Of a stretch of DNA of 36,576 bases, positions 9,825-30,726 are shown one piece after another. A program made the position numbers and the translations under genes. The notes under the pieces were generated by a model, which worked only from the letters and a program-made list of their open reading frames with translations, was not told the DNA's origin and made no database searches. Numbering within the stretch: position 1 is the stretch's first letter; each line of letters starts with the position of its first letter. The DNA is from Bacteroidales bacterium (lineage in GTDB: Bacteria > Bacteroidota > Bacteroidia > Bacteroidales > DTU049), in NCBI GenBank assembly GCA_026418905.1, contig JAOAAK010000010.1:1-36576 (forward strand), given 5' to 3'.

Positions 9825-10748
9825 GTGAAAAAAATTATCTTAAATCTTCTTGAATTATTAAGAACTGGAAGTCCAGAAGAATCTGAAATTAATGAGCTTT
9901 TATATCGCCTGAAAAGTTTTTATCCTGATTTTCCTTTACAAGAATGTTTGCAATTATCTGAGCAAAAAAAATACGATTTAATTGAAACACACATCTCATC
10001 TTTTTTTAAAAGCGATGTTTTATCCGAAGACATATCCTCCATTGAAGGGCTAAAAACTCGTCTTTATTTTCTTGAAATTCAGCATTCCATTCTATCACAA
10101 AAGCTTAATTTATTGGAACAACAACTTTGGCATTTTAAACAACGTTACTATCAAGAACTCAATGATTACATCTCACGACTTCTTGACTTAAAATGGGAAG
10201 TTCTTGCATTAAAAAAAGAAAAAGACAAAAGTTTTTTCGATGACTTTGTAGCAATAGATGAAGAAAGAAAAACATTTAAAGAATTTTCAAGGGACAAGTT
10301 TAATCATCAAGTTATTAACCTTTCAAATGAAGAAGAAAATCAACTTCAAACATTATATAGAGCTGCCTCTAAACTTTGCCATCCTGACCTTGTTATCGAT
10401 GAATTTAAGCAAGAAGCAGAAAAATGGTTTATTGAGCTCAGCCATGCATATCAAGCTAAAGACCTCAAACGAATTCAATGGATTTATGATCAGCTTAATC
10501 AGCGAGAAGTTTTTTTTCCTAAAATTACTGAAACTCTTTCTTCTAAAGAACTTATTCTAGCATCTATCCGGAAACTTGAAAAAAGAAATGTAGAAATTGA
10601 AAAGCAAATTAATGAGATTCAGATGAGTTCGCTGTATAGGACCATTATTTCTAACCATAACATAGATGGCTATTTCGATGGCTTGAAAAAACACTTTATC
10701 ATGGAAATAGAAATACTTGAAAAAGAGTTAATCCAATTACGCTCATGA
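9825..10748 (+). CDS. J-domain-like coiled-coil protein
   Basis: The 307-residue protein has a GTG start; the ATG two bases upstream reads ATG-TGA and cannot be used. Residues about 75-135 and 240-305 are predicted coiled coil (heptad-like Leu/Glu/Lys pattern). Between them, residues about 170-222 resemble a J domain: LYRAASKLCHPDL carries the diagnostic HPD at 186-188, followed by a helix ending AEKWFIELSHAYQAKDL, as in J-domain helices III-IV. J domains stimulate the ATPase of Hsp70 (DnaK). No zinc-finger or C-terminal client-binding domains of DnaJ are present, so this is not dnaJ but a specialised J protein, as found in many Bacteroidota and Proteobacteria. No signal peptide, hence cytoplasmic. 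Its stop overlaps the start of the next gene (ATGA), suggesting translational coupling to the propeller protein. Client unknown. Confidence 0.75.
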   Translation: MKKIILNLLELLRTGSPEESEINELLYRLKSFYPDFPLQECLQLSEQKKYDLIETHISSFFKSDVLSEDISSIEGLKTRLYFLEIQHSILSQKLNLLEQQLWHFKQRYYQELNDYISRLLDLKWEVLALKKEKDKSFFDDFVAIDEERKTFKEFSRDKFNHQVINLSNEEENQLQTLYRAASKLCHPDLVIDEFKQEAEKWFIELSHAYQAKDLKRIQWIYDQLNQREVFFPKITETLSSKELILASIRKLEKRNVEIEKQINEIQMSSLYRTIISNHNIDGYFDGLKKHFIMEIEILEKELIQLRS

Positions 10749-13196: not shown

Positions 13197-13745
13197 ATGC
13201 TAAAGAAAATTAATATTTTTTTGGGGGTACTTATTTTGTTCGTAGCTTCGTGCGCCCCTGCTTATGTGAGAAAAGGGAAAAAAGCTATAAAACAAGAAGT
13301 TTCACGTCTTCAAGAAACACATACTTATTTTCGAAAACTTGATACTACTCAAGTCAGAGATGTTTTCAAATCTTATATGGCTTCACTCGATAGCTTAAAG
13401 AAATACTTTAAAGAAAAAGAAAATGAAGAACAGTGGTACATCATGACTCAATGGGGACAAGTGAAAAAAGCCTTACAGGTTTATCTTTCTTCTTATCCTG
13501 CTATTGAAAAAGATTTTCGTTTTTCTTATAAGCAACTTAGTAATCTCCAGCATGACTTACGTTACAAACTAGTATCAGCTGAAGCTTTCAAACAATACTT
13601 AAACGATGAAATAGAAGCCAACAATAATTTAATCATAAGGGCACGGATGCTGGTCGACAATGCTGAAATGAGTTTGAAAATTTATCATCAATTTCAATTT
13701 AAGATAGATAGCCTTATTCAAGTAATGAGAAATCAATCTCGATGA
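13197..13745 (+). CDS. Small lipoprotein with coiled-coil, function unknown
   Basis: The 182-residue product has a lipoprotein signal peptide ending LFVASC (Cys at residue 19). The mature part is almost entirely charged and helical (for example KKAIKQEVSRLQETHTYF and EEQWYIMTQWGQVKKALQVY), consistent with an extended coiled coil anchored by lipid to the inner or outer membrane. I do not recognise the family. The gene starts five bases after serS and its stop overlaps the start of the TPR-protein gene (ATGA at 13742-13745). That tight coupling suggests that the lipoprotein and the periplasmic TPR protein act together in the envelope. Confidence 0.75.
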   Translation: MLKKINIFLGVLILFVASCAPAYVRKGKKAIKQEVSRLQETHTYFRKLDTTQVRDVFKSYMASLDSLKKYFKEKENEEQWYIMTQWGQVKKALQVYLSSYPAIEKDFRFSYKQLSNLQHDLRYKLVSAEAFKQYLNDEIEANNNLIIRARMLVDNAEMSLKIYHQFQFKIDSLIQVMRNQSR

Positions 13746-18594: not shown

Positions 18595-19065
18595 ATGAAA
18601 AAAATAATTTTTTCTTTCATGCTTTTTCTTTCATGCGTACAACAGAGAAACGATTCAAAAGATCAAGCATTAAATTTACTTAATAAAATGTTCAAATATG
18701 AATGTTTATTAAAAAATGAAATACGAACCATAATAGTATTCTCGGAAAAATCTTTGCGTCATGATACTACCTTTGTATTACCTGATAGCTTTTTAAACAT
18801 ACTTCAATCAAGCTGGTTTGATTTCAAAAAAAGATTTGAAGAATTTGATAGTATTTGTAATAAATCTCTTCACATATCACAACCTTTAAAACAAGTCCAT
18901 GAAATTTACGACACACATCTTTTTCATGAATACTCTCACATAATAGAAATGTTAAAACTCAGAAGAATCCATGCGAAACAATACAAAAACATCCTAAGAA
19001 AATCAATCATGATTGATTCTATTTCAAATCAGTGCTTAAAAATAGTTTGTTCAACAAATTTTTAA
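18595..19065 (+). CDS. Small orphan lipoprotein, function unknown
   Basis: The frame encodes 156 residues. The N-terminus MKKIIFSFMLFLSCVQQ is a short but good lipoprotein signal peptide with Cys at residue 14. The mature part is mostly charged and helical, with several His residues in its second half (HISQPLKQVHEIYDTHLFHEYSHI). I do not recognise a family. It stands alone between two AT-rich gene-free stretches, with a near-consensus promoter upstream. I see no terminator immediately downstream. The signal peptide, promoter and A/T-ending codons like its neighbours favour a real gene. Isolation and lack of similarity suggest a lineage-specific or fast-evolving one. Confidence 0.6.
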   Translation: MKKIIFSFMLFLSCVQQRNDSKDQALNLLNKMFKYECLLKNEIRTIIVFSEKSLRHDTTFVLPDSFLNILQSSWFDFKKRFEEFDSICNKSLHISQPLKQVHEIYDTHLFHEYSHIIEMLKLRRIHAKQYKNILRKSIMIDSISNQCLKIVCSTNF

Positions 19066-19952: not shown

Positions 19953-21029
19953 ATGAAAAAGCATAATTTTAATCCAGGACCGGCTATTTTGCCACAACAG
20001 GTTTTTGAAAGAACCGCTCAGGCTGTTCTTAATTTCAATAATTCAGGTTTATCAATTCTTGAAATTTCTCATAGACATAAAGATTTCGAAAACGTTTTAA
20101 ATCAAGCTATCGAATACATGAGGCAACTTCTTAATCTGCCTCCTAATTACAAGGTAATTTTCCTTGGAGGAGGAGCAAGTTTGCAATTTTCGATGGTACC
20201 ATTTAACTTTTTGAAAACAAAAGCTGCCTACTTGGAAACAGGAGCATGGGCTCAAAAAGCCATCAAAGAAGCTAAAGGATTTGGAGAAGTCGTCATAGTG
20301 GCTTCTTCAGCTGATAAGAATTTTACTTACATACCTAAGAATTTCACCATTCCTACTGATGTAGATTATTTTCATATCACCACCAACAATACCATTTTCG
20401 GTACTGAAATACGCTATGACATAGATTCACCAGTACCACTAGTTGCAGACATGTCATCAGATTTTTGCTCCCGTCCTTTAGATGTAACGAAATATTCATT
20501 AATATACGGAGGTGCTCAGAAAAATATTGGTCCAGCTGGTGTTACTTTTGTTATTATCAAAGAAGAATTTTTACAACAAATCACCAATCAACGTCATATT
20601 CCTACCATGCTTGACTACCGTACTCACGTGAAAGAAAACAGCCTTTATAATACTCCACCTGTTTTTGCTATTTACGTGGTCATGGAAACCATGAAATGGC
20701 TTGTAGAGATTGGTGGGTTGCAAGTAATGGAAAAAATGAATATTGAAAAAGCAAATCTTCTCTATGAGGCAATTGATAACAGCAAAATGTTTATTGGTAC
20801 TGTTGAAAAAGAAAGCCGTTCTATTATGAACGTTTGCTTTGTGATGCGCGAAGAATATAAAGATAAAGAAGAAAAATTCCTTGAATTTGCCAAAGAAAGA
20901 GGAATCATAGGAATCAAAGGTCATCGTTCGGTAGGTGGTTTCCGTGCATCTTTATACAACGCACTTCCCAAGGAAAGCGTGCAATGGCTTATAGATACCA
21001 TGCAAGATTTTGAAAAGCAATACGCTTAA
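19953..21029 (+). CDS. serC: Phosphoserine aminotransferase
   Basis: SerC is a PLP enzyme that transaminates 3-phosphohydroxypyruvate with glutamate to give O-phosphoserine; it also acts on a related substrate in pyridoxine synthesis. The 358-residue protein starts [12 protein letters not shown], the family N-terminus, and has GGGASLQF (72-79), the [10 protein letters not shown] segment that contacts PLP, the Schiff-base Lys190 within [11 protein letters not shown], and the C-terminal [15 protein letters not shown] that binds substrate phosphate and carboxylate. In many Bacteroidota serC is followed by serA. Here a strong terminator follows instead and serA is not in the window, so serC appears monocistronic. 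Confidence 0.97.
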
Positions 21030-21152: not shown

Positions 21153-21160
21153 TAGTTTTG
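21153..21160 (+). promoter_or_regulatory. -7 promoter element of the fused oxidoreductase gene
   Basis: TAGTTTTG, a perfect consensus match, ends nine bases before the ATG at 21170. It overlaps the in-frame TTG at 21158, which therefore cannot be the start codon. Confidence 0.6.
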
Positions 21161-21169
21161 TTAAAAAAA

Positions 21170-24100
21170 ATGGCTAGATTTTTTGTCCATCCAATCCTTG
21201 ATGTTCCAACGACTGAAAAACATTTTTTTACTTACCAAGGCAAACCAGTAGAGACCATGAAAGGACAAACCATAGCTGCTGCTCTTCATAATGCTGGATA
21301 TCCTGTTCATAGTCATTCTCTAAAAAATAGAAATCGCTCACTTGAATGTGGCATCGGCAAGTGTGGAGCATGTGAAATGTTGGTGGATGGTAAAATTAAA
21401 AGAATTTGCATCACCCTTGTTGACGGCGTTAGCGAAGTTTCTGAGATACCCAAAAACTATATTCCTGAGTCAGAAATTTTTAATGCCCAAGAAAGAAACA
21501 TGTATTTAACTGATGTTGCGATCATTGGAGCTGGTCCTGCAGGTTTAGCTGCCCGAGAAATTCTGAACGAACATGGCATTTCCAATATCGTCATTGACAG
21601 CAATCATACCATAGGCGGACAATTCATGATGCAAACTCATCAATTTTTCTTTTTTGAAAAAGAACATCGCTATGGCGGAATGAGAGGTTTCGAAATAGCA
21701 AAACAACTTGCTGGAGATTCAACAAATGGAATTTTTCTCAATTCAACCGTTTGGGACATTTTTCAAGGAAAAATCATAGCAGCTAAAAATATTCGTACAG
21801 GAGAGTTTTTTTATGTAAAAGCTGAATATTTGGTGATTGCTACTGGTGCAATTCCTTTTATACCGCCCTTCGAAAATGACGACTTGCCAGGTGTTTACAC
21901 TGCTGCTGTGATTCAAAAAATGATGAATCTGGAATACACCCTCCTCGGAAAAAAGATTTTAACCGTCGGTGCCGGGAATATTGGGTATTTAACAAGTTAT
22001 CAACTTACCCAAGCCGGAGCACAAGTAGTAGCTATTATTGAAGCCCGCGATCAAGAAGGAGGCTTTCCCGTTCAGGCTAATAGAATAAAAAGGCTGGGAA
22101 TTCCCATCTTACTCAACCATATGCTTGTCAAAGCTATACCTAATGAAGATAAATCAGGAATTATCGGTGCAGTTATTGCCGAATGCAAAAACTTTCAGCC
22201 TATTCCTGGCACAGAAAAAAAACTTATGGGAATTGATGCTATCAATATCTGCACCGGATTGGTTCCAGATAATCAATTATTAACATTGGGCGAAGAAATA
22301 TTTGGAAAAAAGTGCTTAGGTGGTGGAGATGCCATTCGTATTGGAGAAGGAACTTCCGCTGTTTTGAGAGGAAAACAAATTGCCTATGAGATCCTAGATA
22401 TGATGGGTAAAAAATACAACTACGATACCTATCTAGCCATATCGAAAGAGTACTTAGACTCACAGCAACATCCCATAAAAATTCTTGACGATCCTATCAT
22501 GCCCGACGAAGAAAGAATGAAAAAACCGTTCGTTATACTTGACTGTACCTACGGATTTGCTTGCAATCCTTGTGTCTTCGTATGTCCTCATAAAGCCATT
22601 TCAAAATCTTCTACCAGTACGGTTCCCGTCGTTGACTACAACAAATGCACTGGCTGCATGGCGTGTGTGTATCAGTGTCCTGGACTTGCCATTTTTGGTT
22701 ATAACATCCAAACAAGTACTATTTTCTTTCCTGTGGAGCTATTCGTAGATGAAGGTGTCGATGTGTACCTTGTCGACAACGATGGGAAGATAGTTGGGGA
22801 AGGAGTAGTAGAAAAAATTCTAAAAAAGCCTAACAAAACCAATATAGCACGAGTACGTTCAACCACCCTCCATGGTGAAAAATTAACCAAGGCAAGGGGT
22901 TTTATACCTAAAAATCGGTTTCCAGAGCGATTAATTTTCGAACCTGGTGAAACTTTTATACAAGAAGAAACTTTTATTTGTCACTGTGAGGATGTTACTT
23001 ACGAGGAAATCAAAAATGCTATTGGAGATCGTAAATACATATCTATTGATGAAATTAAACATACAACACGTTTAGGGATGGGGGCTTGCCGAGGAAAAAG
23101 ATGTTTCCAGCGGCTTAAGACCTTAGCTGCTGCCGACGGAATAACCATTGTTGGTGCACCAACACCTCGTGGTCCTTTATCCAACCAAATCTTTTTTGGA
23201 GAATTGCAAAAACCACTTCAAACCCGTATTGTTCCTTATAACATCTGTAAAAAAATTCCTATCGTTGAAACCAAAGTGCTTATTGCAGGTGGCGGAATTG
23301 CTGGAAGTGCACTTTTCCGCTATTTTTCTGAGGCAGGCTTTAACCCCATTTTAATAAATTATCAGCATGGTTCCTCTTGGAGAAACATTGCTGGAGGTAG
23401 GCCTGTTTTTAGTATCCCAGAATTAAGTGAAATTGCTTTACGTAACAAAGAAATTTTCATTGAACTTCAAAAAATTAAAAACATTAATTTCAAACCTATT
23501 AGATATATAAGTTTTGCTCATGACGAGGATACATTTAAAGCACTTGATGCTTCCAGGGCTTGGAGCAACGCTATAATGATTGAACCCAAAGATTTTGTAA
23601 AATACATTTCCCCCTATTTCAATCCCCATCTTCATACATACCTCGGTGCATTGATCACAGAAGATTGTTGGCAAGCCAATCCTGGAAAGGTGGTTGACCT
23701 CATTCGAACCATTGGTTTAGCCCATGGCGGCCAACTGTTAGAAGATACTCGTTTGATTAGTGTTGAAAAAGAAAATGATCAAGTTATAGCTCTTGTTCGA
23801 AATCACTTTGGAAATTACATGAAGTACAAAGCACAACACTTTGTTAATGCATTGGGCTCAGAAGCCCGTACTTTTGCTTTGCAGCTAGGAATCGATCCTG
23901 GGATTTATCCGGTTCGACATCAAGCATTTATTACAAGAAGTTTACCCATGTTAGGATATCACGATGAAAATCTTGATATGCTTATTGATCGAAGGATTTT
24001 TAAAGGTTTTTCTGCTATCTACGGGCAACAATTAAAGGAAACCGGTCAGATTATCGGTTGTGCATCACCAGTGTTAGACCCAGACGAAACTAATCAAAAT

Positions 24101-24394
24101 CTAAAAATTAATACCATTGATTTTATTGAAGCTATAAGCGAAGTTTTCACGCAATGGATTCCTTCTCTTAAATCAGTTCAATTCCAAGCCATTTGGGGGG
24201 GATATTACGTCGAACCACGCTATATTGTAGATCCTGAACTTGGCTTGTTCATTGGCCTCAGAGGTCATGGTTTTATGCTTGCTCAGTATTTAGCAAAATT
24301 ATATGTAGATGCATTTCTTAACAAAGAAGTTCCATCATACTTCAAAGAACTTAAGTTAAGTGGCAAAGGTTTGCAGGAGAAATCATTCAAGTAA
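21170..24394 (+). CDS. Single-chain multi-cofactor FAD/Fe-S oxidoreductase (HcnABC / sarcosine-oxidase-alpha-like plus DAO domain)
   Basis: A 1074-residue protein with five redox modules. Residues 1-100 are a 2Fe-2S ferredoxin with C60, C65, C68 and C80. Residues about 115-440 form a two-dinucleotide flavoprotein, with GAGPAG at 120-125 and GAGNIG near 267-272. Residues about 459-503 carry two 4Fe-4S motifs (FACNPCVFVCP and CTGCMACVYQCP). Residues about 600-660 are a BFD-like 2Fe-2S domain with C604, C606, C640 and C645. Residues about 699-1060 are a DAO-type FAD oxidase (GGGIAGSAL; GLRGHGFMLA near the end). HCN synthase and dye-linked proline, hydroxyproline or opine dehydrogenases split these modules over two to four subunits. 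Likely role: oxidation of an amino-acid or imino-acid substrate at the DAO flavin, with internal electron transfer. Substrate unknown; no signal peptide, so cytoplasmic or peripheral. Confidence 0.85.
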   Translation: MARFFVHPILDVPTTEKHFFTYQGKPVETMKGQTIAAALHNAGYPVHSHSLKNRNRSLECGIGKCGACEMLVDGKIKRICITLVDGVSEVSEIPKNYIPESEIFNAQERNMYLTDVAIIGAGPAGLAAREILNEHGISNIVIDSNHTIGGQFMMQTHQFFFFEKEHRYGGMRGFEIAKQLAGDSTNGIFLNSTVWDIFQGKIIAAKNIRTGEFFYVKAEYLVIATGAIPFIPPFENDDLPGVYTAAVIQKMMNLEYTLLGKKILTVGAGNIGYLTSYQLTQAGAQVVAIIEARDQEGGFPVQANRIKRLGIPILLNHMLVKAIPNEDKSGIIGAVIAECKNFQPIPGTEKKLMGIDAINICTGLVPDNQLLTLGEEIFGKKCLGGGDAIRIGEGTSAVLRGKQIAYEILDMMGKKYNYDTYLAISKEYLDSQQHPIKILDDPIMPDEERMKKPFVILDCTYGFACNPCVFVCPHKAISKSSTSTVPVVDYNKCTGCMACVYQCPGLAIFGYNIQTSTIFFPVELFVDEGVDVYLVDNDGKIVGEGVVEKILKKPNKTNIARVRSTTLHGEKLTKARGFIPKNRFPERLIFEPGETFIQEETFICHCEDVTYEEIKNAIGDRKYISIDEIKHTTRLGMGACRGKRCFQRLKTLAAADGITIVGAPTPRGPLSNQIFFGELQKPLQTRIVPYNICKKIPIVETKVLIAGGGIAGSALFRYFSEAGFNPILINYQHGSSWRNIAGGRPVFSIPELSEIALRNKEIFIELQKIKNINFKPIRYISFAHDEDTFKALDASRAWSNAIMIEPKDFVKYISPYFNPHLHTYLGALITEDCWQANPGKVVDLIRTIGLAHGGQLLEDTRLISVEKENDQVIALVRNHFGNYMKYKAQHFVNALGSEARTFALQLGIDPGIYPVRHQAFITRSLPMLGYHDENLDMLIDRRIFKGFSAIYGQQLKETGQIIGCASPVLDPDETNQNLKINTIDFIEAISEVFTQWIPSLKSVQFQAIWGGYYVEPRYIVDPELGLFIGLRGHGFMLAQYLAKLYVDAFLNKEVPSYFKELKLSGKGLQEKSFK

Positions 24395-27309: not shown

Positions 27310-30300
27310 ATGTTCCGTAATGCTTTTATTTTATGTATTCTTTTATACTCGTGTTGGGTAAAATCCCAACATCCTAACTGGAAGGTAATAACCCTCTATC
27401 GTCCTTATCCCGATTCTCTTAAGCTAGATACAGCTACCATCCCAGAAGATAAGTGGTTTGCCATGAGTGGTACAACAGTCTTAAACAAAGAAAATTTCAA
27501 GTTTAATGTAAACACGGGTTTTTTATATTTTGATACAACAATACTCAATCGATTCGATTCTATTTCTATCTTATGGTCGCCCATACATGTAAATCTCTCG
27601 AAAATTTATTACCATAAAGACACTTCCATCATTACTAAAACATCAAAATTATTACTCATTCCATATAATGAAATCAACTATAAAAAGCCGAATTTTTTCG
27701 AAACAGGATCAATCGAAAAATCAGGAAACTTCACACGTGGAATCAGCATTGGTAATAGGCAAGATCCAGGATTTAACTCATCCTTGAACCTTTCTCTGAG
27801 AGGAAAAATAACAGAAGATCTTGAAATTTCAGCTCATCTCACCGATCAAAAGCTACCCATTCAACCACAAGGAACTACCCAACAAATTCAAGATATCGAC
27901 AACATATTTATACAACTAAAATATAGAAAATTCCTGCTCGACGCAGGGGACATAGAACTATCTTCCGACAAACATTATTTTCTCAAATATCGCCGTAAGG
28001 TAGAAGGTATCAAGTTCCAAGATAAAGTTCGTTCCATTTTCACTAAGAACGACTCTCTTTTTTATCATTGCGGTACTTCATTTTCACGTGGTCAGTATGC
28101 TCGGATTAGTATCAATCCTATTGAAGGTAATCAGGGCCCATACAGACTTTATGGCAAAAACAATGAAATGTACATTATTATTCTTGCTGGTACAGAACGA
28201 GTCTATTTAGATGGAGAATTACTTCAACGAGGACAAGAAAATGACTACGTTATTAATTACAACACAGCAGAAATAACTTTCACTCATCGAATCCAAATTC
28301 GATCTAATAGTAGAATCATAGTAGAATTTCAATATATCGATAGATTTTACAATAAGTACCTTCTTACAACAGGAGTTCAATATCATCTTCGACAATGGAA
28401 AATTCGAGCTTCAATGATGGAAGAAAAAGATTTAAAAAGTCAACCCATTGAACCTCTTTCCGACTCAGCTCGCAAAGTCTTATTCATAACTGGCGACAGT
28501 TTGCAACATGCTTATCTTACTGGTATTCGTGTCGTTCCATTTCAGAATGATCTTGTTCTTTACGCTATGAAAGACTCTCTTGGTTATGATAGTGTCTTTT
28601 ATTACTCAACCAATCCAGATAGTGCACGTTATCTACTCTACTTCTCCTACGTGGGCCAACATAAAGGAAATTACATTCTTGATCCTCAGTTAGCCAATGG
28701 TAAAGTTTATCGGTGGATCTGTCCTGTAAATGGAATCCCTCAAGGTTCCTACGAACCCGTTATCCAGCTCGTGACACCTCAGAAAACCAGCATGTGGACC
28801 ATTGCCACTGATTTTCAGCCTAATTCTAAAACCCTTTTCAATTTGGAATATGCTCGAAGTACCAAAGATTTAAATACCTTTTCTCCTTATCATGATAACA
28901 ACAACCATGGCAATGCTATCAAGTTTTTTACAGAATATAAACGACCTCTCAGACACCTTCGAGACAGTTCCTCGATATGGAAAATATTCTTTTCGGCTGA
29001 AGCAACGGATTCACTTTTTTCCCCAGTCGAAAAATTCCTGCCACTCGAATTTGAACGTAACTGGTCCTTACATCAAAGTGTGAAGGCTTATCAATTGTTA
29101 GAAATGGATAATCTTATTCAGGTTAAACAATTTTCTATTCGGGTACAAAATTCATTGCTTCATCTACCTTCCAATTTGCTTTCGACGAAAACTTCATACT
29201 TATGGCAAGTCAAGATAAACCGTTTTTATCTTTTTCAAAGCGGCTCCTACGTTAGCCCATGGCAAGGAAAACAACTTCCTTTTTTTCAGTACAAAAACGT
29301 CGTAAGTTTCCTTCCTTGGAAAGTAAAATTAAATTTAGTTCACACTGGTGAAATTCGAAAAGGAAATACTCAATTGGCTATCGATACTAATCAGTTTCGT
29401 TGGAATCAAGTCATGGTGTATGTCCAGAATATTGATACTAATCAATGGACAGTACGACCGTATTATTCCATGAGGCTGGACGAGCGTTTTTATAATGGTC
29501 ATCCAATCAAGACTAGGCATTCTCACGAGACAGGACTAAATTTTACCTTCCATCGTTTTCTTCCCATTCAATGGCAATCCGATATCAGTTATTGGTGGTT
29601 TCCAGTCTTGACCGATACCAGCATGAAAACGCATTTTCTACAAATGAAACATACCACCTCTCAGCAATATTTTAAAGGATTTTTGTCCTTCAGTCTTCGT
29701 TATTTAAATAGAATGGGCCGAGAAAACAAAAAAGAATTCTTTTTCTTGGAAGTAGCTCCCGGTCAAGGATCTCATACGTGGAAAGACTACAATCATAACG
29801 GGATTAAAGAATTGAACGAATTTGTCCTTGCTAGTTTCCAGGATCAAGCAAACTACATTAAAATGTTATTACCTTCCACTCAATACCAAATTGTTTATGA
29901 TATTTACTCTTCAGGTGATATGATCATCGATGCTGCAAAATTAAACATCAAACGTAAATTTTGGATCTGGTTACAAGGTTTAAAAAACACTTTTTCATTT
30001 CAATTTAATAGTAAAAACACCTCTCCTATTCTAAAACATCATTTTATTCCTCATCGCATCCCGGATAGTCTTCATCTTTTTTTAAGTCAATCGCTTCGGG
30101 AACAGATTTCTTTTAGAAATTCTACTGGAAAAATAAGTACTTATTATTTATTACAAGTAAATAAGGTTGCTCAATCTTATTTCTATGGAACTGATGATCA
30201 TACAACTATAGAACATCGAAGCCAGACGACCTTCCAATTCAAACAACATTTCTACTTCGAGCCACTCCTTTATCAAAAATCTCAAAAAAATTTATCTGTC

Positions 30301-30726
30301 GTATCATACGTTCAAAGCTATCAAATCGACAAGAAAGGAATCGGTTTAATCCTTTCATACCAACGTTCCATCAAATGGAGAACCTCCGTCGGAAGTTCTT
30401 TTGAAAAATCACAAAATATGACTGATACAACAAAAACTCTTAAACAAACCTGGAGCATCGAACATCGACATTCTTTTGCTACACGAGGAAATATTTCACT
30501 AAAATTTCAATTTCAAAACATATATGGTTTAAACAAAGCGATTCACCCCTACATTGAATACATCATGTTGGAAGGATACAAAGTGGGAAAAAACTTTTCA
30601 TGGGAAATTATGTTTATGCGACGCTTAGATAATAACATCGAACTCACATTCATGTATACTGGACGTGCTTTACCACATGAAACTGTCGTTCATACCGGCA
30701 GTGCTCAGATTCGTGTAATTTTTTAG
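27310..30726 (+). CDS. Large predicted outer-membrane beta-barrel protein of a Bacteroidota-specific family
   Basis: 1138 residues. A signal peptide covers residues 1-20 (ending VKSQ); a lipobox reading at Cys15 is possible but less likely. Residues 140-220 hold a conserved-looking block: FTRGISIGNRQDPGFNSSLN, then LTDQKLPIQPQGTTQQIQDI, then LDAGDIELSS. I recall similar blocks in uncharacterised Bacteroidota outer-membrane proteins, and a looser likeness to segments of SprA, the T9SS translocon. Residues 826-838 (DYNHNGIKELNEF) resemble an EF-hand calcium loop. Much of the rest alternates polar and aromatic residues as in barrel strands, and the protein ends RVIF with the terminal Phe of BAM substrates. 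Function unknown. Its stop overlaps the convergent adenine deaminase stop. Confidence 0.7.
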   Translation: MFRNAFILCILLYSCWVKSQHPNWKVITLYRPYPDSLKLDTATIPEDKWFAMSGTTVLNKENFKFNVNTGFLYFDTTILNRFDSISILWSPIHVNLSKIYYHKDTSIITKTSKLLLIPYNEINYKKPNFFETGSIEKSGNFTRGISIGNRQDPGFNSSLNLSLRGKITEDLEISAHLTDQKLPIQPQGTTQQIQDIDNIFIQLKYRKFLLDAGDIELSSDKHYFLKYRRKVEGIKFQDKVRSIFTKNDSLFYHCGTSFSRGQYARISINPIEGNQGPYRLYGKNNEMYIIILAGTERVYLDGELLQRGQENDYVINYNTAEITFTHRIQIRSNSRIIVEFQYIDRFYNKYLLTTGVQYHLRQWKIRASMMEEKDLKSQPIEPLSDSARKVLFITGDSLQHAYLTGIRVVPFQNDLVLYAMKDSLGYDSVFYYSTNPDSARYLLYFSYVGQHKGNYILDPQLANGKVYRWICPVNGIPQGSYEPVIQLVTPQKTSMWTIATDFQPNSKTLFNLEYARSTKDLNTFSPYHDNNNHGNAIKFFTEYKRPLRHLRDSSSIWKIFFSAEATDSLFSPVEKFLPLEFERNWSLHQSVKAYQLLEMDNLIQVKQFSIRVQNSLLHLPSNLLSTKTSYLWQVKINRFYLFQSGSYVSPWQGKQLPFFQYKNVVSFLPWKVKLNLVHTGEIRKGNTQLAIDTNQFRWNQVMVYVQNIDTNQWTVRPYYSMRLDERFYNGHPIKTRHSHETGLNFTFHRFLPIQWQSDISYWWFPVLTDTSMKTHFLQMKHTTSQQYFKGFLSFSLRYLNRMGRENKKEFFFLEVAPGQGSHTWKDYNHNGIKELNEFVLASFQDQANYIKMLLPSTQYQIVYDIYSSGDMIIDAAKLNIKRKFWIWLQGLKNTFSFQFNSKNTSPILKHHFIPHRIPDSLHLFLSQSLREQISFRNSTGKISTYYLLQVNKVAQSYFYGTDDHTTIEHRSQTTFQFKQHFYFEPLLYQKSQKNLSVVSYVQSYQIDKKGIGLILSYQRSIKWRTSVGSSFEKSQNMTDTTKTLKQTWSIEHRHSFATRGNISLKFQFQNIYGLNKAIHPYIEYIMLEGYKVGKNFSWEIMFMRRLDNNIELTFMYTGRALPHETVVHTGSAQIRVIF

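Follow-up and report, generated by a model that had tools for sequence, protein, structure and literature searches.

The 36,576-nucleotide stretch analysed here (the window) is the whole of a Bacteroidales contig, JAOAAK010000010.1 (G000:C10 in our sample), from a genome of 2.11 Mb rated 97% complete. Its forward strand carries a gene that joins five redox modules in a single chain of 1074 residues. We propose that the product is probably a one-chain amino or imino acid dehydrogenase of the class that includes opine dehydrogenase, the archaeal L-proline dehydrogenases PDH1 and PDH2 and the HcnABC hydrogen cyanide (HCN) synthase, with nicotinamide adenine dinucleotide (NAD(H)) or ferredoxin as acceptor and, most likely, a secondary amino acid as substrate. 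This proposal builds on what was observed of the modules and the sequence in which they occur, of cysteine conservation, of the fold predicted for the DAO part and of the spread of the gene over the order.

Modules, kinship and spread of the chain

The reading frame extends over 21158-24394 on the forward strand, where the first start codon, TTG at 21158, would give 1078 residues. The in-frame ATG at 21170 corresponds to Met in all 41 sequences of an alignment of the window protein with 40 relatives, on which the conservation counts below are based; thus, the start codon and the length of 1074 residues given in a preliminary description of this DNA are correct. Five Pfam families fall within the frame, each exceeding its gathering cut-off (Table 1). 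Together with the cysteine pattern, they agree with the earlier assignment of a 2Fe-2S ferredoxin, a flavoprotein, two 4Fe-4S motifs, a BFD domain and a DAO domain to one chain. The first 4Fe-4S site (C459, C465, C468, C472) is assigned from its cysteine pattern; matches to dicluster Fer4 models span this site at scores under the respective cut-offs. No Pfam family covers the beta-rich segment at residues 508-564 among the matches listed (best 25 of 35).

The cysteine numbers in the preliminary description proved exact in the alignment. Fifteen of the 16 cluster cysteines listed in Table 1 are invariant (41/41), and the remaining one, C80, is present in 40/41. The four Fer2 cysteines follow the class motif CX4CX2CX11-12C. 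The BFD cysteine pairs are separated by 33 residues; 15-20 residues lie between the pairs in the BFD-type motif of the heteromeric DAO dehydrogenase class, according to the available excerpts of PMC4575208. D143 and E291 are both invariant (41/41), as are G267, G269, N270, I271 and G272 of the second dinucleotide motif, with A268 nearly so. From the position of E291 after this motif, NAD(H) would be expected over NADP(H). Within the DAO part, the invariant residues R738, R744, C833, H917 and E1015 are candidates for the active site.

We compared the chain with solved structures. A profile of the 41 sequences retrieved the two chains of Pyrococcus horikoshii PDH1 as the top Protein Data Bank (PDB) matches (1y56_B, 6.7e-16; 1y56_A, 2.9e-15), followed by the alpha subunit of heterotetrameric sarcosine oxidase (1.5e-9) and dimethylglycine dehydrogenase (8.2e-7). 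A phmmer search with the whole protein placed 1y56_A first (3.9e-16), then sarcosine oxidase alpha (2gag_A), with 1y56_B third; the alignment to 1y56_A covers residues 13-268 plus a weak second stretch over the BFD domain. In an AlphaFold model built with 42 sequences (predicted local distance difference test 82.9, predicted template modelling score 0.77), the DAO third superimposes on 1y56_B (Z 37.8, root-mean-square deviation 2.6, 352 aligned residues, 22% identity) and on sarcosine oxidase beta 1vrq_B (Z 36.9), a tie by the rule of the tool. The top four Foldseek matches were two sarcosine oxidase alpha chains and the two PDH1 chains, and glycine oxidases were among the leading fold matches. 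The C-terminal third is DAO-like by Pfam and also by predicted fold, in line with the first assignment. Among curated NCBIfam models, SoxA (TIGR01372) scored 93.7 bits, below its cut-off of 1164, and the sole match of the DAO part was ThiO (TIGR02352; 22.8 bits, cut-off 250.8); the chain lies below every curated NCBIfam cut-off among the matches listed.

Matches at E<=1e-8 were found in 87 of 198 genomes of the order, 81 of which carry the whole chain unbroken. The remaining six hold halves at contig edges (G540, G452, G571), fragments (G406, G552) or a distant relative alone (G533). Within the window's family, each of the 12 genomes has a match, which in ten is of full length and on one contig; one of the exceptions is partial at a contig end (G596) and the other is split over two contigs (G589). 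Two matches flagged with one internal TAA (G399, G410) have stop-free open reading frames (ORFs) of 1077 and 1076 residues. Since the frame is continuous over the module joints in 81/198 genomes, the fusion of two genes by misassembly, which the preliminary description had raised as a concern, is excluded. The single-chain version that it put forward therefore exists, but it is no one-off, being common in Bacteroidales.

Of 395 genomes sampled from the phylum, the window's own was the only one to match at E<=1e-30, and five other genomes of the order in that sample were without a match. Full-length homologues were found in a Bacteroidales metagenome-assembled genome (SLKJ01000012.1, 60% identity), presumably from a soda lake to judge by the sample name, and in a Parabacteroides distasonis record (61%; WP_048927274.1), the one full-length match among plasmid records. 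A peptide-pattern scan of genome contigs, with small reach outside the phylum, returned two loci. Twenty plasmid records matched the DAO part at E<=0.1; Parabacteroides excepted, the top match had E 1e-5 and 23% identity, and the six plasmid regions examined held no nearer relative. In a tree of 81 single-chain proteins, with arbitrary root, proteins from the same family of genomes are mostly adjacent (exceptions f57, f117 and f135), the pattern that mostly vertical inheritance would show.

Three loci had further features. The P. distasonis copy (L024) lies on a 219 kb record labelled plasmid (NZ_OY725834.1) that also carries ppdK and rlmD, which look chromosomal. L003:1-2789 and L004:1647-4435 have 2789 bases in common at 99.8%; they are binned as Bacteroidales and Spirochaetaceae, and one bin may be wrong or chimeric. 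The relative in L003 also has a 40-residue insert (L003:3939-4058, residues 567-606) between the 4Fe-4S part and the BFD domain, repeat-like and rich in Leu, Gly, Glu, Asp and Ser, which is perhaps a flexible linker.

Table 1 Features of the fusion gene and its upstream neighbour. Pfam residue ranges are numbered from the TTG start (subtract 4 for numbering from the ATG); all other residue numbers, here and in the text, count from the ATG.
Feature	Position	Strand	Residues and motifs	Evidence
Single-chain oxidoreductase gene	21170..24394	+	1074 aa, ATG start	Full-length homologues exist
Fer2_4 2Fe-2S domain	21227..21421	+	C60, C65, C68, C80	Pfam residues 24-88, 33.9 bits (cut-off 22.8); cysteine conservation
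Pyr_redox_2 FAD/NAD(P) flavoprotein module	21512..22294	+	First Rossmann GxGxxG 120-125 with D143	Pfam residues 119-379, 101.8 bits (cut-off 26.1)
Second dinucleotide motif	21968..22042	+	GAGNIG (267-272) with E291	Alignment
Two 4Fe-4S motifs	22544..22678	+	C459, C465, C468, C472; C493, C496, C499, C503	Fer4 for the second motif, Pfam residues 490-512, 25.6 bits (cut-off 21.1); cysteines
Beta-rich segment between 4Fe-4S region and BFD	22691..22861	+	508-564	Secondary structure of model
Fer2_BFD 2Fe-2S domain	22976..23125	+	C604, C606, C640, C645	Pfam residues 607-656, 37.9 bits (cut-off 26); cysteine conservation
DAO flavoenzyme module	23273..24310	+		Pfam residues 706-1051, 113.2 bits (cut-off 27.9), E 2.5e-32; nearest solved chain 1y56_B (PDH1 beta)
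Class-V aminotransferase, upstream neighbour	19953..21029	+		serC candidate by eye

Two-gene relatives, upstream box and gene neighbourhood

Two genomes of the order (loci L038 and L039) encode a protein of 1290 or 1292 residues, whose second half has the domains Fer2-Pyr_redox-Fer4-BFD, followed directly by a separate DAO-like gene. The extra N-terminal half carries Fer2, Fer4 and FlpD (MvhD) domains. In L038 the DAO-like gene overlaps the preceding gene by four bases, and the long protein shares 29% identity with window residues 3-681 over 712 columns, with its cluster cysteines at the same spacing. Between the separate DAO-like product of L038 and the DAO domain of the fusion, the match has E 1.3e-10 with 25% identity. 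These loci therefore have the module order of the window chain, Fer2, Pyr_redox, Fer4, BFD, DAO, but keep DAO as its own gene. As the modules occur as two adjacent genes in the same order, loss of the stop codon between them is the simplest route to a single chain, and the fusion may have arisen from two such genes in this way. The L038/L039 pair itself is a distant relative of the fusion, not its ancestor.

In L038:2873-10337 and L039:2392-9853, a protein of 797 or 798 residues, a NuoE/NuoF-like candidate by eye, stands ahead of the long fusion protein and the DAO-like gene. Together, these genes may perhaps encode a system that couples an amine dehydrogenase to an NADH/ferredoxin complex. 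PMC9304861, which deals with the Bfu family, does not use the terms DAO, amino acid oxidase, sarcosine, proline or glycine in its main text.

When inverted dyads of three letters with spacers from 2 to 13 were ranked upstream of the first 41 fusion genes, TGA-N6-TCA came first (16/41, against 34/423 controls). The narrower TGAYN4RTCA occurs in 15/41 of these genes and 15/423 control upstreams; of these 15 controls, four belong to divergent neighbours whose site is also that of the fusion gene, which makes this control rate too high rather than too low. Since TGAYN4RTCA was picked after inspection, it was retested on 42 held-out genes, two of which had less than 200 bases upstream and were dropped. 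The controls were neighbourhood upstreams from mostly the same genomes. The box was present in 11/40 held-out genes and 5/329 controls, plus two controls sharing the fusion's site, and because the sequences are related (L053 and L056 are near copies) the p-values overstate independence. TGAYN4RTCA resembles FNR-like boxes such as TTGACnnnnGTCAA (PMC1274295). In part of the order, the fusion gene is probably under a redox- or anaerobiosis-responsive regulator of the CRP/FNR family.

Gene neighbourhoods were compared in a first set of 43 (41 fusion loci, L038 and L039) and an enlarged set of 83 (81 single-chain loci, L038 and L039); these 81 loci differ as a set from the 81 genomes with a full-length chain. 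In the enlarged set, a YceD gene recurs in 17 neighbourhoods, PlsX in 14, FabH in 15, a starch-synthase-domain gene in 11 and a DUF4270 gene in 12. Thirteen of the 81 single-chain loci have the YceD gene <=300 bases downstream; by eye, these YceD-adjacent loci are scattered over the protein tree, suggesting an old position. The recurrence of YceD, PlsX and FabH is housekeeping synteny and gives no clue to the substrate. Superoxide dismutase was considered as a partner and dropped, being a near gene in 5/43 of the first loci but in 1/40 further loci; its family is present in 154/198 genomes. Apart from the fusion itself, no family recurred in more than five of the first 43 neighbourhoods. The aminotransferase upstream of the window gene does not belong to any neighbour family listed as recurring at the other loci, and no Rfam riboswitch match was found in 20 loci. 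Elsewhere in the window, the ORFs 27310-30726 (1138 residues), 18595-19065 (156), 9825-10748 (307) and 13197-13745 (182) have no Pfam match at E<=1e-5.

Proposed mechanism and alternative functions

In the reaction that we propose, the C-terminal DAO module would oxidize an amino or imino acid and pass the hydride to its flavin adenine dinucleotide (FAD). Electrons would then travel singly through the BFD 2Fe-2S cluster, the two 4Fe-4S clusters and the N-terminal 2Fe-2S cluster to the FAD of the Pyr_redox_2 module, and from there to NAD+ or ferredoxin. The fusion would hold donor site, wire and acceptor site together. Of the built-in electron transfer suggested in the preliminary description, the cofactor motifs in one chain are borne out; the transfer itself is read from these motifs, in a chain without the Arg-X-Trp motif of the class. 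By analogy with the nearest solved relatives, which act on proline and sarcosine, the most likely class of substrate is secondary amino acids resembling these two; L-proline is one candidate.

Several observations weigh against a dehydrogenase of this class. Arg-X-Trp in the beta subunit is the flavin mononucleotide (FMN) site proposed by Watanabe et al., according to the available excerpts of PMC4575208. It was not found in the 41 aligned sequences, where 38 have Ala and three have Ser at position 1007 and W1009 is invariant (41/41); the aligned residue in 1y56_B at 1007 is Arg. Residue 730 is Asn in 41/41 where 1y56_B carries a Glu that holds the FAD ribose, and the loop directly after it (733-739) has low confidence in the AlphaFold model, so the DAO part may bind FAD in another way. 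None of the named families is close to the DAO domain in sequence. For the N-terminal half, the fold assignment is based on Foldseek, the second aligner having barely tested that half. None of the neighbourhoods examined holds an operon partner hinting at a substrate, and the window gene's own upstream region is without the box. Classical Pro_dh is present in 56 of the 86 fusion genomes, so a role in proline oxidation would often be redundant. These 86 are the 87 matching genomes minus G533, which has the distant two-gene relative alone, with the fragments in G406 and G552 kept; the remaining 112 are without the fusion.

A narrower reading, which we regard as rather unlikely, is that the chain is specifically an L-proline (or D-proline) dehydrogenase, an NAD- or ferredoxin-linked partner of the PutA-type enzyme or a stand-in for it. 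Both top PDB matches are PDH1 chains, a short Pro_dh gene (303, 303 and 328 residues) directly adjoins the fusion gene in three loci from three families (L060, L146, L154), and another Pro_dh lies on the window contig at 2367-3578, ~17.6 kb from the fusion gene. However, this adjacency is confined to 3/81 single-chain neighbourhoods, lies in a shared block of housekeeping genes and may therefore reflect old synteny. Across the order, Pro_dh is not associated with the fusion (56/86 with, 62/112 without, p 0.19), a distribution that argues neither for nor against proline, and members of the class also act on opines, glycine and hydroxyproline, according to the available excerpts of PMC4575208. 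For hydroxyproline itself, kinship with D-hydroxyproline dehydrogenase, a member of the same class in those excerpts, is set against the distribution of the proline racemase/hydroxyproline epimerase family (PF05544, above cut-off in 17 genomes, of which the 14 with E<1e-90 were counted). The family is present in 5/86 fusion genomes and 9/112 others, so the usual first step was not found in 81 of the 86; this speaks against a general hydroxyproline role, and we consider a D-hydroxyproline dehydrogenase very improbable. We give almost no credence to an anaerobic ThiO, which would make iminoacetate (dehydroglycine) from glycine for thiazole synthesis. The ThiO match of the DAO part and the glycine oxidases among the top fold matches are in its favour, but the distribution of ThiG and ThiH contradicts a thiazole role. 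Each is found in 15/86 genomes with the fusion and 45/112 without, all 15 fusion genomes with ThiG have ThiH too, and the sole genome with ThiG but without ThiH (G583) has no fusion. For ThiG (PF05690, above cut-off in 143/198), the 60 genomes with E<1e-41 were counted and weak partial matches left out.

FlpD and NuoE/NuoF-type parts occur in electron-bifurcating complexes. Two flavin modules and four cluster sites in one chain would suit an NADH-driven reductase, or an electron-confurcating or bifurcating enzyme whose four-cluster chain would link an amine/imine couple with NAD(H) and ferredoxin. The L038/L039 proteins, in which the same module set is joined to Fer2, Fer4 and FlpD domains and preceded by the NuoE/NuoF-like candidate, point the same way, and the FNR-like boxes fit an anaerobic role. 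On the other side, the single-chain protein has no FlpD or NuoE/F family among the matches listed, it is without the Arg-X-Trp of a possible third flavin (FMN), and bifurcation cannot be recognized from sequence; we judge this reading improbable. Slightly less probable again is the combination of confurcation or bifurcation on one chain between an amine/imine couple, NAD(H) and ferredoxin with FNR-type induction in part of Bacteroidales and Asn at the FAD-ribose acid site.

The one-chain amino or imino acid dehydrogenase that we favour would be a redox enzyme of 81/198 genomes of the order, and it occurs in a record of the gut species P. distasonis, annotated merely as 'FAD-dependent oxidoreductase'. 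With all cofactors on one chain, it would be a handy object for determining the structure of a whole electron path, for which its class relatives need several genes. Its substrate, once found, would add a reaction to the amino acid metabolism of Bacteroidales.

Comparison with known enzymes of the class

The preliminary description was right in kind that HcnABC and the proline, hydroxyproline and opine dehydrogenases use separate subunits. PMC4575208 describes opine dehydrogenase, D-hydroxyproline dehydrogenase, HCN synthase and archaeal L-proline dehydrogenase as heteromeric enzymes. Four genes, pdhA, pdhF, pdhX and pdhB, encode the alpha-beta-gamma-delta form of L-proline dehydrogenase represented by Thermococcus profundus (PMC4364671). 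We found no one-chain enzyme of this class in the open literature, judged by titles and abstract openings among the matches listed. The window protein shares with the class a flavoprotein and BFD-type 2Fe-2S alpha part, the Fer2 motif, and a DAO part nearest to PDH beta in a comparison that left HcnC, OoxB and HypO sequences outside; it departs from the class in Arg-X-Trp and in having its modules on one chain instead of separate subunits.

OdhABC (OoxAB/NoxAB), D-hydroxyproline dehydrogenase and HcnABC were compared by description (available excerpts of PMC4575208). Like the window protein, they combine a DAO-superfamily beta subunit with gamma and alpha subunits that carry both 2Fe-2S motif types. 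Unlike it, they are built of separate subunits (alpha4beta4gamma4), no 4Fe-4S motif is mentioned in these excerpts, and both opine types carry Arg-X-Trp. Heterotetrameric sarcosine oxidase (SoxA TIGR01372; 2gag, 1vrq) resembles the chain in its alpha-like N-terminal half and beta-like DAO half, whereas the SoxA score is below cut-off and GCV_T is absent here among the matches listed (best 25 of 35).

The closest counterpart in the PDB is PDH1 of Thermococcales (alpha4beta4, 1y56), whose chains are the best sequence matches of both halves and whose beta chain shares first place with sarcosine oxidase beta among fold matches of the DAO part. PDH1 alpha has a Fer2-like region, a flavoprotein part and a BFD domain in the order of the window protein. 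The Thermococcales enzymes have two or four subunits where the window has one chain, and the window protein differs from PDH1 in lacking Arg-X-Trp, with 22% identity in the DAO part. The aligned Fer2 region of PDH1 alpha (PH1363) is without cysteines while the window protein has the complete Fer2 set, and thus the fuller set of clusters; it adds two 4Fe-4S motifs and a beta-rich segment before the BFD domain.

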